A stretch of 32,336 nucleotides of DNA from Planctomycetota bacterium (GTDB lineage Bacteria > Planctomycetota > JACQVV01 > JASMLP01): positions 1 through 32,336 of the forward strand of contig JASMLP010000121.1 in NCBI GenBank assembly GCA_030748635.1. The letters run 5' to 3'. Under the pieces are notes generated by a model that was not told the origin of the DNA, did not search any database, and was given only the letters and a program-made list of their open reading frames with translations. Every line of letters starts with the position of its first letter. The stretch's first letter is position 1. This document shows positions 3,640 to 6,323 of this stretch, piece by piece. The translations under genes were made by a program, and so were the position numbers.

Positions 3640-4821
3640 CTAACAAGTTTCAACCGCAACAGCAACCGATCCACCGCCCCCCAGGCAGAGCGTTGCCAGA
3701 CCGGTTTCGCCTCCTCGGTGCTTCAAAGCGTGTAGCAAAGTGGTCAGGATACGCGCCCCGGAACAACCGATCGGATGACCGAGCGCGACGGCTCCTCCAT
3801 GAATATTCACACGATCCTGATCCAGTCCGAGTTTGCGAATCAAGGCCACAGTGCTGGCACTGAAAGCCTCGTTGATCTCCACCAGATCGAAGGATGCGGC
3901 CGATACGCTTAGCCGTTCCTCGACCTTTTTCACCCCCTCTAACGGGGCCATCATCACCCATCGAGGCTCCACGAATCCGCTAGCATAGGCCGTGATTTTA
4001 GCCAGCGGCTGAACTCCGAGTTCTTCCACTTTTCGAGCACTGGCCACGACCAGAGCGCTCGCTCCATCGTTGATCGTGCTCGCATTCCCCGCCGTGACCG
4101 AACCTTCCCGATCAAACGCGGGCTTGAGTCGACCGAGAGATTCCGCAGTCACCCCTTCCCGTGGTCCCTCATCTCGAGCGAAGAGGAGTGGGTCTCCCTT
4201 CCGCTGAGGTACCTTGACCGGAACGATTTCACGATCAAACAGCGATTTTTCCTGAGCTTTCAATGCCCGCTCATGACTCCGAGCCGCATACGCATCCTGA
4301 TCCTCCCGACTAATACCAAACTCCCGGACCACCAGTTCGGCAGTCATGCCCATATGCTGATCGTCATACGGATCCCAGAGACCGTCATAGATCATTCCAT
4401 CCAGTACGCGTCCATGGCCTAGCCGGATTCCCGTTCGAGCATCCGGCAGATAATAGGGCGCCTGGGACATCGACTCCTGCCCCCCAGCGAGCAGTAGATC
4501 CGCGTCGCCGGCTTTGATGGCCTGCGCCGCCAGACAAACCGCCTTGAGACCGGAGCCACAGACCTTGTTGATCGTCAATGCGGGAATCCGATCCGGCAGT
4601 TCGGCCCGTCGTGCCGACTGTCGGGCAGGCGCCTGACCAGCCCCTCCCTGAAGAACATGCCCAAGAATCACTTCATCCACGTCTTCAGCACTAGCACCGG
4701 AACGGGACAAAGCCTCCTTCAAGACCACCCCACCCAGTTCGGCGGCCGGTAAACCCGACAGGGTTCCCTGAAACCGACCGATAGCCGTGCGAACCGCACT
4801 CAAGATATATACGTCACTCAT
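3640..4821 (-). CDS. atoB: Acetyl-CoA C-acetyltransferase (thiolase)
   Basis: Biosynthetic/degradative thiolase, 393 aa, that condenses two acetyl-CoA or cleaves 3-ketoacyl-CoA. Seen: the nucleophile Cys88 in NKVCGSGLKAV, GHPIGCSGARI with His349, and CLGGGG with Cys379. These are the complete Cys-His-Cys set, at positions typical of the family. Length is normal. It heads the acyl-CoA gene group, 118 nt before hbd, and lies 94 nt after the stop of the selenoprotein glutaredoxin gene. No good Shine-Dalgarno is obvious before the ATG at 4821, but the protein begins in register with the family (MSDVYILSAVRTAIGRF). Whether it acts in acetoacetyl-CoA synthesis or in beta-oxidation cannot be decided here. 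Confidence 0.95.
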   Translation of the reverse strand: MSDVYILSAVRTAIGRFQGTLSGLPAAELGGVVLKEALSRSGASAEDVDEVILGHVLQGGAGQAPARQSARRAELPDRIPALTINKVCGSGLKAVCLAAQAIKAGDADLLLAGGQESMSQAPYYLPDARTGIRLGHGRVLDGMIYDGLWDPYDDQHMGMTAELVVREFGISREDQDAYAARSHERALKAQEKSLFDREIVPVKVPQRKGDPLLFARDEGPREGVTAESLGRLKPAFDREGSVTAGNASTINDGASALVVASARKVEELGVQPLAKITAYASGFVEPRWVMMAPLEGVKKVEERLSVSAASFDLVEINEAFSASTVALIRKLGLDQDRVNIHGGAVALGHPIGCSGARILTTLLHALKHRGGETGLATLCLGGGGSVAVAVETC

Positions 4822-4858
4822 GATGAGCGAAACCCTATCCTTCCCAATAGAAATGAAA

Positions 4859-4880
4859 CTCCGGGCCCATGGGAGCGGAG
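4859..4880 (-). terminator. Possible weak terminator after the selenoprotein glutaredoxin gene
   Basis: On the minus strand CTCCG (4880-4876) pairs with CGGAG (4863-4859) around a segment containing the palindrome CCCATGGG. It is followed by the T-rich stretch TTTCATTTCT. It lies 36 nt beyond the glutaredoxin stop and before the thiolase gene. The stem is short and has an internal mismatch, so this is only a candidate. Confidence 0.3.
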
Positions 4881-4915
4881 CAAAAGATCTCGTACCGAGT
4901 TACCAGGCAGCGATC

Positions 4916-5155
4916 TCAACCCGCGAGAGCCGCTTCGATTTCCGCCTGCCGAAAACCGACAATCACCTTGTCACCTACGACAATCGTAGGGGTTCCCATA
5001 CTCTTGTAGGTCTGAACCAGTTCCATCTGAGCTTCAGGATCGGTTGCGATATTCTTCTCCTGATATTCGACCCCCTTGGACGAAAGAAACTCCTTCGCCG
5101 AAGTACACGGGCCTCAGTGAGGACTGCTGAATACGATCACTTTCTTATCGGACAT
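4916..5155 (-). CDS. Glutaredoxin-like selenoprotein with U-G-P-C active site (in-frame TGA)
   Basis: A 79-aa glutaredoxin/thioredoxin-fold protein is encoded if the TGA at 5116-5114 (codon 14) is read as selenocysteine. Seen: beta strand KKVIVFSS, then PHUGPCTSAKEFL with U14 and Cys17, then KGVEYQEKNIATDP, the cis-proline motif MGTPTIVVGD and a C-terminal helix EIEAALAG ending in TGA. A normal member has Cys at the U position, so the TGA falls exactly on the catalytic residue. A 12-bp stem-loop downstream fits a bacterial SECIS. The start at 5155 has AGGA about 8 nt upstream. Likely role: cytoplasmic thiol/disulfide or selenol redox chemistry, substrate unknown. It resembles the family NCBI calls Uxx-star glutaredoxin-like (seleno)proteins, from memory. 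Standard ORF calling misses the gene because of the TGA. Sec machinery genes are not in the window. Confidence 0.87.
5075..5103 (-). promoter_or_regulatory. Bacterial SECIS element of the glutaredoxin-like selenoprotein
   Basis: On the minus strand CTTCGGCGAAGG (5103-5092) pairs with CTTTCGTCCAAG (5086-5075) around the loop AGTTT. That is a 12-bp stem with one C-C mismatch and two G-U pairs. The apical loop starts 23 nt after the UGA and has G as its second base. Both properties agree with the published bacterial SECIS model (loop about 16-37 nt downstream, G among the first two loop bases). It would recruit SelB with Sec-tRNA. Confidence 0.78.
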
Positions 5156-5360
5156 GATTCTTTTCCTTTCCGTGGTGAGAGGATAACCGTCTGGGCTGAA
5201 AGCCACACCCGGCGTGTGTGAGTGAAACGAAACTTTTGCCTATCCTACGCTCTGAAGGTCCGGTAGGGAATACGGGACCGTACCCCGGAGAAAAGAGGCC
5301 CCAATACCCCTTTCTTCTCTCCCGGTTCGGGAAAATACCTCCACGATCAGGAACCGTTGA

Positions 5361-5716
5361 TCAGACCCCGATCCCCTTCTGTTCTCCGTTCGAGTTGACT
5401 CGAATCCGACGAAACACCAACCCCATCTCGATCACGAGCCAGACCGAAAGGATCAAAGTGGAGAGCGGAAAACTCCTTTTTCCGCGGGAGCGGAGAGATT
5501 GCTACACAGACTCAAAACCGTTGCCGTCCCGGTGGCCACCATCATGAATAACATCGGAACCAACGTGTACCGAACGGGTCGCTGTCACCCAGAAAGAGAC
5601 ACACTGACGATGAAAAGCCCCAACCCGGCCAGCAACTGATGGGTAGTGCCGTCCAGGAGGTGGGCGACCACGAAACCAGCCCCACAGATCAAATCGATTC
5701 CCAGCGCATGAATCAT
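5361..5716 (-). pseudogene. cstA: Decayed remnant of a CstA-type carbon-starvation/peptide permease C-terminus
   Basis: On the minus strand, one frame reads TTHQLLAGLGLFIVSVSLSG, a TGA at 5590-5588, then RPVRYTLVPMLFMMVATGTA. After a frameshift near 5500 another frame reads SLRSRGKRSF and then LILSVWLVIEMGLVFRR, before a stop at 5363-5361. In order, these resemble the last helices of CstA permeases (GATNQLLAG, RRGRPxWYTLVPM, and the final xLWLVxEA helix), judged from memory. The upstream two thirds are absent. The internal TGA is preceded by GG and would be a one-base change from CGA (Arg), which fits decay. The remnant sits between the two selenoprotein genes, starting right after the redoxin stop. 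The 205 nt between its end and the glutaredoxin start (5156-5360) show nothing coding. Alternative: a short two-helix protein of about 44 aa (ATG at 5716). Confidence 0.55.
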
Positions 5717-5720
5717 TCGG

Positions 5721-6323
5721 TCATTTTCCATCCGACCGCGAACGGCCCTGATCATCGTAAAAAAGAGACCATTGATCCGGGCGATACCGATCCAGAGCGT
5801 GCAAAAACTCCAGCGGCAAGGTCAACTCCTCCTCCTCGTGAGGTCCCACCAACGGTTGACCGTGCAAATAACCGTCTCGGTCGATGACATAGGTGGTCGG
5901 ACTCCCGGGAATTCGGGCCTTGCCGTAGATCCGTCCGTAGGCGGTCACAACCCCCAAATCTCCCCGAACCGTTCGAACGCGCGCTCCTTCGCCCAGATGC
6001 ATTCTCCGAAACCGACTCAACCGATCCTCATCACAGGCCTGCCCATTGCCGGTGATGCATACCAGAACGACCTCTAATCCAACCCGCTTCCAGGCCGGAT
6101 CCGTGGCGATCCGGCCCACGGCCGGCATCATCTGCGTCGCCATCCTTCATCCCGGTTTGAAAAAAATCAGAAGCACCAGTTTTCCCCGAAGATCCTTCAA
6201 TTCGAGAATACGCCCCGATCCTTCCTGCAGCGCGAAGGACGGCGCACGGCGCAAACGATCTACCGACTCTTGAGCCATACCCCATCCTCCCAGGAAAACC
6301 AGGAGAAGAAGAATCGACCTCAT
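5721..6323 (-). CDS. Exported TlpA-like redoxin, candidate selenoprotein (U-R-M-A, in-frame TGA)
   Basis: A 200-aa thioredoxin-fold protein results if the TGA at 6149-6147 (codon 59) is read as selenocysteine. Seen: signal peptide MRSILLLLVFLGGWGMAQE; APSFALQEGSGRILELKDLRGK, the usual TlpA/AhpC-like lead-in; LVLLIFFKPGURMATQMMP with U59 where family members have the catalytic Cys; Cys89 and Cys97 as possible resolving residues; and RIPGSPTTYVIDRDG with cis-Pro142. The motif is UxxA, so no CxxC-type partner is present. The ATG at 6323 overlaps the gatB stop by 4 nt (ATGA), which fixes the start and implies coupling. A SECIS-like hairpin follows the TGA. It likely acts outside the cytoplasmic membrane in thiol or peroxide redox. 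A decayed gene with a nonsense codon is the alternative, but the frame stays intact on both sides. Confidence 0.82.
6108..6129 (-). promoter_or_regulatory. Candidate bacterial SECIS element of the redoxin gene
   Basis: On the minus strand GAT-G-CCGGCC (6129-6120) pairs with GGCCGG-ATC (6116-6108) around the loop GTG. The stem is 6 G/C pairs plus 3 pairs beyond a single bulged G on the 5' side. The loop starts 28 nt after the UGA and its first base is G, again within the known bacterial SECIS rules. The GC-rich stem makes it stable. Confidence 0.68.

Follow-up and report, generated by a model that had tools for sequence, protein, structure and literature searches.

The question raised by this locus is whether a TGA that interrupts a small glutaredoxin frame in a planctomycete genome is a selenocysteine (Sec) codon or a lesion. 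The window, i.e. the whole stretch of 32,336 nucleotides that was analysed, corresponds to contig 121 in an assembly of 4.25 Mb that is 93.7% complete and divided into 217 contigs.

The frame, its homologs and the selenocysteine machinery

The original prediction had described a glutaredoxin-like gene in which a TGA takes the place of the first cysteine of a CxxC site in a frame otherwise intact from ATG to TGA, with a cis-proline motif in its downstream half and no counterpart in ordinary ORF prediction. All of these points were borne out. The coordinates given were correct and the strand, which had been left unstated, is minus (Table 1). The translation, MSDKKVIVFSSPHUGPCTSAKEFLSSKGVEYQEKNIATDPEAQMELVQTYKSMGTPTIVVGDKVIVGFRQAEIEAALAG, contains a single internal TGA, at codon 14, and the GTPT motif is assigned to the cis-Pro region by analogy. 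The ORF listing (at least 70 amino acids) has no minus-strand ORF at this place, and a mechanical plus-strand ORF (4787-5221) overlaps the gene. With C substituted for U, the protein scored 60.7 bits against Pfam Glutaredoxin (PF00462, cut-off 22.9). The best NCBIfam model was GlrX_YruB (TIGR02196), whose curated cut-off of 88.55 was narrowly missed at 85.3 bits; because this model scores best and yet stays under its cut-off, we refer to the protein as YruB-type rather than as a filed member of the family. PADLOC gave no result.

Table 1. Positions of the genes, codons and hairpins discussed in the text (positions refer to the window unless a contig or locus is named)
Feature	Position	Strand	Remarks
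Predicted Sec-containing glutaredoxin CDS, 79 aa	4916..5155	minus	ATG at 5155, terminator TGA 4916-4918; site H-U-G-P-C
In-frame TGA, predicted Sec codon 14	5114..5116	minus	same codon is TGA in 8 further matches
Putative bacterial SECIS	5079..5099	minus	stem of 9 bp without a break, loop GUU at 5088-5090 with an A-U closing pair, UGA-to-loop distance 23 nt, -8.9 kcal/mol
Remnant of CstA-type transporter C-terminus	5507..5683	minus	nonsense TGA 5585-5587; best rule-type hairpin -3.1 kcal/mol
TlpA/ResA-like (AhpC-TSA) protein, 200 aa, TGA at codon 59	5721..6323	minus	ATG overlaps gatB stop (ATGA)
In-frame TGA, probable Sec codon 59 of the TlpA-like gene	6147..6149	minus	
SECIS-like hairpin CCGGCC-GUG-GGCCGG	6111..6125	minus	27 nt after UGA, -10.3 kcal/mol
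selD with in-frame TGA (GGUAAKIG)	own genome contig 160, locus L018 1501-2439		probable selenoprotein
Three neighbouring glutaredoxin copies	locus L183, G164 contig 42, 257142-257954		one Sec with SECIS, two Cys without
Putative N-terminal Sec-glutaredoxin (PGUSSC-like) + DinB-like extension	L066 874-1642	minus	same SECIS
Putative N-terminal Sec-glutaredoxin (PGUSSC-like) + DinB-like extension	L059 2809-3570	plus	same SECIS

The TGA is not peculiar to this genome. Matches to the protein at E <= 0.001 were found in 26 of the 119 genomes of the relatives set, and besides the window eight of these matches, distributed over six other genomes, contain one TGA, which in all eight aligns with codon 14. 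A search of 392 genomes of the phylum at E <= 1e-8 gave 102 matches, which come from 86 genomes; a single TGA occurs in 20 of these matches and in 17 of the 32 that score at least 61 bits (counted by hand from the table). Only TGA (Sec) or Cys codons occupy the codon-14 position in the aligned homologs, in agreement with the replacement of the first CxxC cysteine that had been proposed. A gene tree of 29 rows joins the window protein to the Sec forms of G001 and G020, with branch support. The best tree requires five changes of the Sec/Cys label, of which two are forced by branches with support.

The genes selA, selB, selC and selD, which the original prediction had named as the ones to look for, are all present in the assembly, each above its curated cut-off: selA scored 565.1 bits, selB 360.8 bits, selD 328.4 bits and tRNA-Sec 71.3 bits, the last with the anticodon tca according to ARAGORN. 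Among 14 control genomes, the cut-off was passed by five for tRNA-Sec, one for SelA, two for SelB and two for SelD. The selD gene has one in-frame TGA of its own, and the SelD of this genome is probably itself a selenoprotein. The selA and tRNA-Sec genes adjoin on opposite strands (contig 111, 29758-31333). Within the relatives set, selA was above its cut-off in all seven genomes with the TGA form, which is weak evidence because 84 of the 119 genomes pass anyway. The latter number indicates that Sec use looks common within Planctomycetota; selenoproteins are already known in planctomycetes of the alga Porphyra, according to the available text of PMC4807772.

No support was found for a reading of the UGA as another amino acid, through suppression or a reassigned code, and it is extremely improbable, since the glutaredoxin gene itself terminates with TGA, the genome encodes a complete Sec machinery, the aligned homologs show only TGA or Cys codons at this position, and a SECIS candidate follows the codon.

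The hairpin downstream of the UGA

The published rule for bacterial SECIS elements, as worded in the available text of PMC13188914, requires a loop of 3-9 nt with a G in its first two positions, a stem of 4-16 bp, a distance of 16-37 nt from the UGA and a stability of -7.5 kcal/mol or below; it was applied here with a purpose-written scanner for contiguous stems, not with bSECISearch. The hairpin in the window lies within these limits in loop, stem, distance and stability (Table 1), as had been claimed, and the 23-nt spacing that had been given likewise holds when measured from the UGA to the loop. The 12-bp stem of the original prediction stands as an interrupted stem that runs across a mismatch, and not as an unbroken one, which has 9 bp, or 8 bp when the loop is written AGUUU. 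In the plain fold, three extra pairs form beyond a one-base mismatch, and the earlier figure may have been derived from counting them.

When the codons were shuffled synonymously 2000 times, a hairpin of the rule type with -7.5 kcal/mol or less arose in 10 shuffles, and the observed -8.9 was reached in nine. Folded plainly, a 48-nt piece did not stand out from its dinucleotide shuffles (z -0.35; 69 of 200 shuffles did as well), and Rfam at gathering scores had no match anywhere in the window. The case for this putative SECIS stands on comparison, not on single-sequence stability.

Protein similarity identified nine Sec genes, in which three pairs of the stem were invariant and the pairs 21-33 and 22-32 were standard in seven of nine genes each, with the types AT, CG, TA and TG. 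The exceptions were two genes of G002 (L029 and L047), of which L047 (the same as L189) has another hairpin of -11.4 kcal/mol. Furthermore, genome contigs were scanned with a UGA-plus-stem pattern, which returned at least 119 stretches; 117 of those listed were usable, L083 (cut by the record end) and L101 (short frame) being dropped. The scan pattern fixes much of the motif, so that a test is provided by the two free pairs only. Among the matches listed, these were standard in 115 and 116 of the 117 usable frames, and pair 21-33 was AT in 78 and CG in 37 of them. In 79 of the 80 pattern-found loci among the matches listed (L101 dropped, L083 kept), 157 of 158 cells were paired, and none of 5000 permutations, in which relatedness was ignored, reached 157 (mean 119.5, maximum 133). 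In these alignments, the hairpin pairs covary among the TGA homologs.

The distribution of the hairpin was also compared between Sec and Cys forms, using all 17 TGA-containing rows and 11 of the 15 rows lacking a TGA from the 32 matches of at least 61 bits. Under the strict SECIS rule, 13 of the 17 Sec rows and none of the 11 Cys rows passed; the Sec rows that failed the limit of -7.5 kcal/mol were L184 (-7.2, from the same-order relative), L195 (-2.8), L200 (-2.9) and L046. When phylogeny was controlled for, this association could be assessed in just two independent pairs on supported branches, with a median p of 0.5. The cleanest contrast is a natural one inside a single genome, G164, in which a Sec copy with the stem lies near two Cys copies without it. 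In another genome (G235), the Cys form has lost the 3' arm of the stem.

These comparisons bear on the possibility that the TGA arose by nonsense mutation or sequencing error in a Cys-type glutaredoxin, which would make the gene a pseudogene. Such a reading could draw on the division of the assembly into 217 contigs and on a decaying gene, the cstA remnant, which carries a nonsense TGA 430 bp upstream of the glutaredoxin gene. That TGA, by contrast, aligns with an arginine and has no comparable hairpin (Table 1), whereas the remaining frame and motifs of the glutaredoxin gene are intact. Eight matches in six other genomes share the TGA together with a covarying stem, which makes a sequencing error implausible, and the homologs have largely refuted this explanation already, leaving it with only a very slight probability.

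Neighbouring genes

The glutaredoxin gene has a probable selenoprotein gene as a neighbour, which was absent from the original prediction. The TlpA-like protein encoded upstream scored 33.2 bits for AhpC-TSA (cut-off 26), and its single close homolog in the 392 genomes, in G001 of the same order, has a TGA at the same place; the next match scored 51.7 bits with a query alignment that included the window and G001 sequences. The active-site context is FFKPGURMATQ in the window and FFRYGUGTC in G001, where the hairpin CCCGGC-CGUGC-GCCGGG follows 26 nt after the TGA (-11.1 kcal/mol). The copy in the window (U-R-M-A) is without the resolving Cys that its G001 relative has. Seven of 15 TlpA-like loci were examined: the five that had been chosen for their TGA all combine an active-site U with a hairpin below -7.5 kcal/mol, and the other two have CxxC. 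The TlpA-like protein is probably extracytoplasmic because its N-terminus starts with a stretch that is hydrophobic by eye, and it may have a role related to that of the Sec-glutaredoxin. Sec in Prx-like thiol:disulfide oxidoreductases is already known from the available text of PMC13188914.

In G001 the gene order is tlpA(U)-cstA-grx(U), with an intact cstA gene (L049 2823-4634); in the window, the place of cstA between the two selenoprotein genes is held by a remnant only. The remnant aligned with the CstA of its own genome at a score of 82 and with the CstA of G001 at 63, and none of 2000 shuffles scored as high in either case. Two results speak against this identification: the match to Pfam CstA (E 4.5e-4, 19.5 bits) is below the 27-bit cut-off, and BLASTP of the remnant against the G001 CstA gave E values of 0.42 or more only. 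Contig 109 of the same assembly carries one intact cstA. We asked whether the same small membrane ORF with its TGA might be a third selenoprotein and rejected this, since it aligns with the CstA C-terminus and its TGA has the arginine position and poor hairpin described above. Thus, of the three in-frame TGAs in this stretch of about 1 kb, two have the look of Sec codons, and the third is plain decay.

Proposed function and a possible wider class of Sec redoxins

With a probability of about 95%, we read this gene as a YruB-type glutaredoxin whose UGA codon 14 is translated into selenocysteine with the help of SelB, tRNA-Sec and the downstream hairpin, and whose Sec14 and Cys17 form a selenol/thiol redox couple. 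SelB and tRNA-Sec, together with the hairpin 3' of codon 14, would insert Sec at the UGA. In the resulting Sec14-Gly-Pro-Cys17 couple, the selenolate would attack a disulfide or an oxidised partner, Cys17 would resolve the intermediate as a selenenylsulfide, and a cellular reductant, presumably glutathione or thioredoxin reductase, would reset the pair. The present data show the frame and its motif, the machinery genes, the covarying SECIS and the conserved UGA; the production of the protein, its catalytic cycle, its reductant and its partner are what we infer; the attacking role of Sec14 and the resolving role of Cys17 are assigned by analogy with Grx1 of Clostridium oremlandii.

The nearest solved relative is PDB 7c10, a glutaredoxin with a CPHC site (45% identity over 74 amino acids), and from their CPHC and monothiol sites 7c10 and 7c12 would both represent C. 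oremlandii Grx1. A further structure of the same family, the 'thioredoxin' of PDB 3zij (52 bits in phmmer), differs in having CPPC without Sec, and we take it to be Bacillus cereus BC3987. According to the available text of PMC3720550, BC3987 is a small redoxin that can reduce class Ib ribonucleotide reductase, and thioredoxin reductase is stated there as the reductant for Trx-like proteins generally. C. oremlandii Grx1 is natively a Sec glutaredoxin, CPHC replacing the native Sec site in the form described; its proposed substrate is the selenoprotein MsrA and its proposed reductant is glutathione (PMC7642778, available text). The window protein shares with it a site of the U/C-P-x-C type, compactness and a ..VGF.. 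motif near the C-terminus, and differs in its HUGPC site and in its planctomycete host. Sec-glutaredoxins have also been listed for Geobacter sulfurreducens, Alkaliphilus and Moorella in the available texts of PMC1794560 and of a 2026 review (PMC13188914); compared by description only, they are likewise members of the glutaredoxin family with Sec, shown as UxxC in the table of the review.

A different function has been considered, in which the selenoprotein would mainly bind a metal, a metalloid or selenium, as for UXX-star, instead of reducing disulfides. Uxx_star (NF041212) was the second-best NCBIfam model (C for U), and the Sec of that family may be a metal ligand (PMC13188914, available text); its score of 50.6 bits is, however, under the curated cut-off of 66, the window protein has a resolving Cys17 and a cis-Pro region of the Grx type, and its closest relative of solved structure is a glutaredoxin. 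We regard this function as unlikely and retain disulfide reduction by the Sec14/Cys17 couple. The UXX-star family and the ArsC family (seleno)proteins (NF041106) resemble the window protein in carrying Sec in a thioredoxin fold, although it falls below the cut-offs of both. The same SECIS pattern also found an ArsC-type gene (L070) that is above the NF041106 cut-off.

Regular-expression sorting of the 119 listed stretches gave 41 PGUSSC-like, 38 YruB-type, 32 ArsC-like, five of the WKPGUTGC type and one other, with two excluded; the class calls were made mostly by eye, seven stretches being scanned with profiles. Bacillus-like frames sorted with the 38 of the YruB-type class among the matches listed. 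A C-terminal extension was present in all six PGUSSC-like frames that were inspected, and it was DinB-like in the two scanned against Pfam (24.3 and 25.7 bits, cut-off 24.8); no NCBIfam model was above its cut-off for the one PGUSSC-like frame scanned. Further frames of this PGUSSC-like and DinB-like kind occur among L056-L174. The titles, which were available for 80 of the 119 listed, place such frames in records of Betaproteobacteria or Burkholderiales, Alphaproteobacteria and others. Sites of the form ULDC or UTDC were also seen in four glutaredoxin-like frames (L064, L090, L105 and L137), three of them in records titled Peribacillus (L064), Pseudomonas sp. ISL-84 (L090) and Bacillus (L105). 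A link between DinB and selenoproteins was not found in the available texts of the literature searched, the word DinB is absent from the available text of the review PMC13188914, and none of the sought terms occur in the deep-Sep paper (PMC12013277).

It is conceivable, at somewhat less than even odds, that a single SECIS design, CGNNRG-AGUNY-CUNNCG, which encodes E[FY]L[SA] right after UxxC, is common to glutaredoxins, ArsC-like proteins and fusions of glutaredoxin with DinB in many groups of bacteria. The RNA element would thereby have fixed a part of the protein sequence and would mark a class of Sec redoxins that is large, poorly annotated and includes the window gene.

A planctomycete Sec-glutaredoxin was not found described in the available texts of the literature searched, supplements aside. 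The kind of protein is already known, and the present gene extends the Sec-glutaredoxins to a planctomycete, which is a confirmation rather than a surprise. The analysis shows that a gene which ordinary ORF calling overlooks here is real; with its TlpA-like neighbour it forms a probable pair of selenoprotein genes that a relative of the same order has in the same arrangement, and the DNA pattern obtained from it picks Sec redoxins out of environmental genomes.
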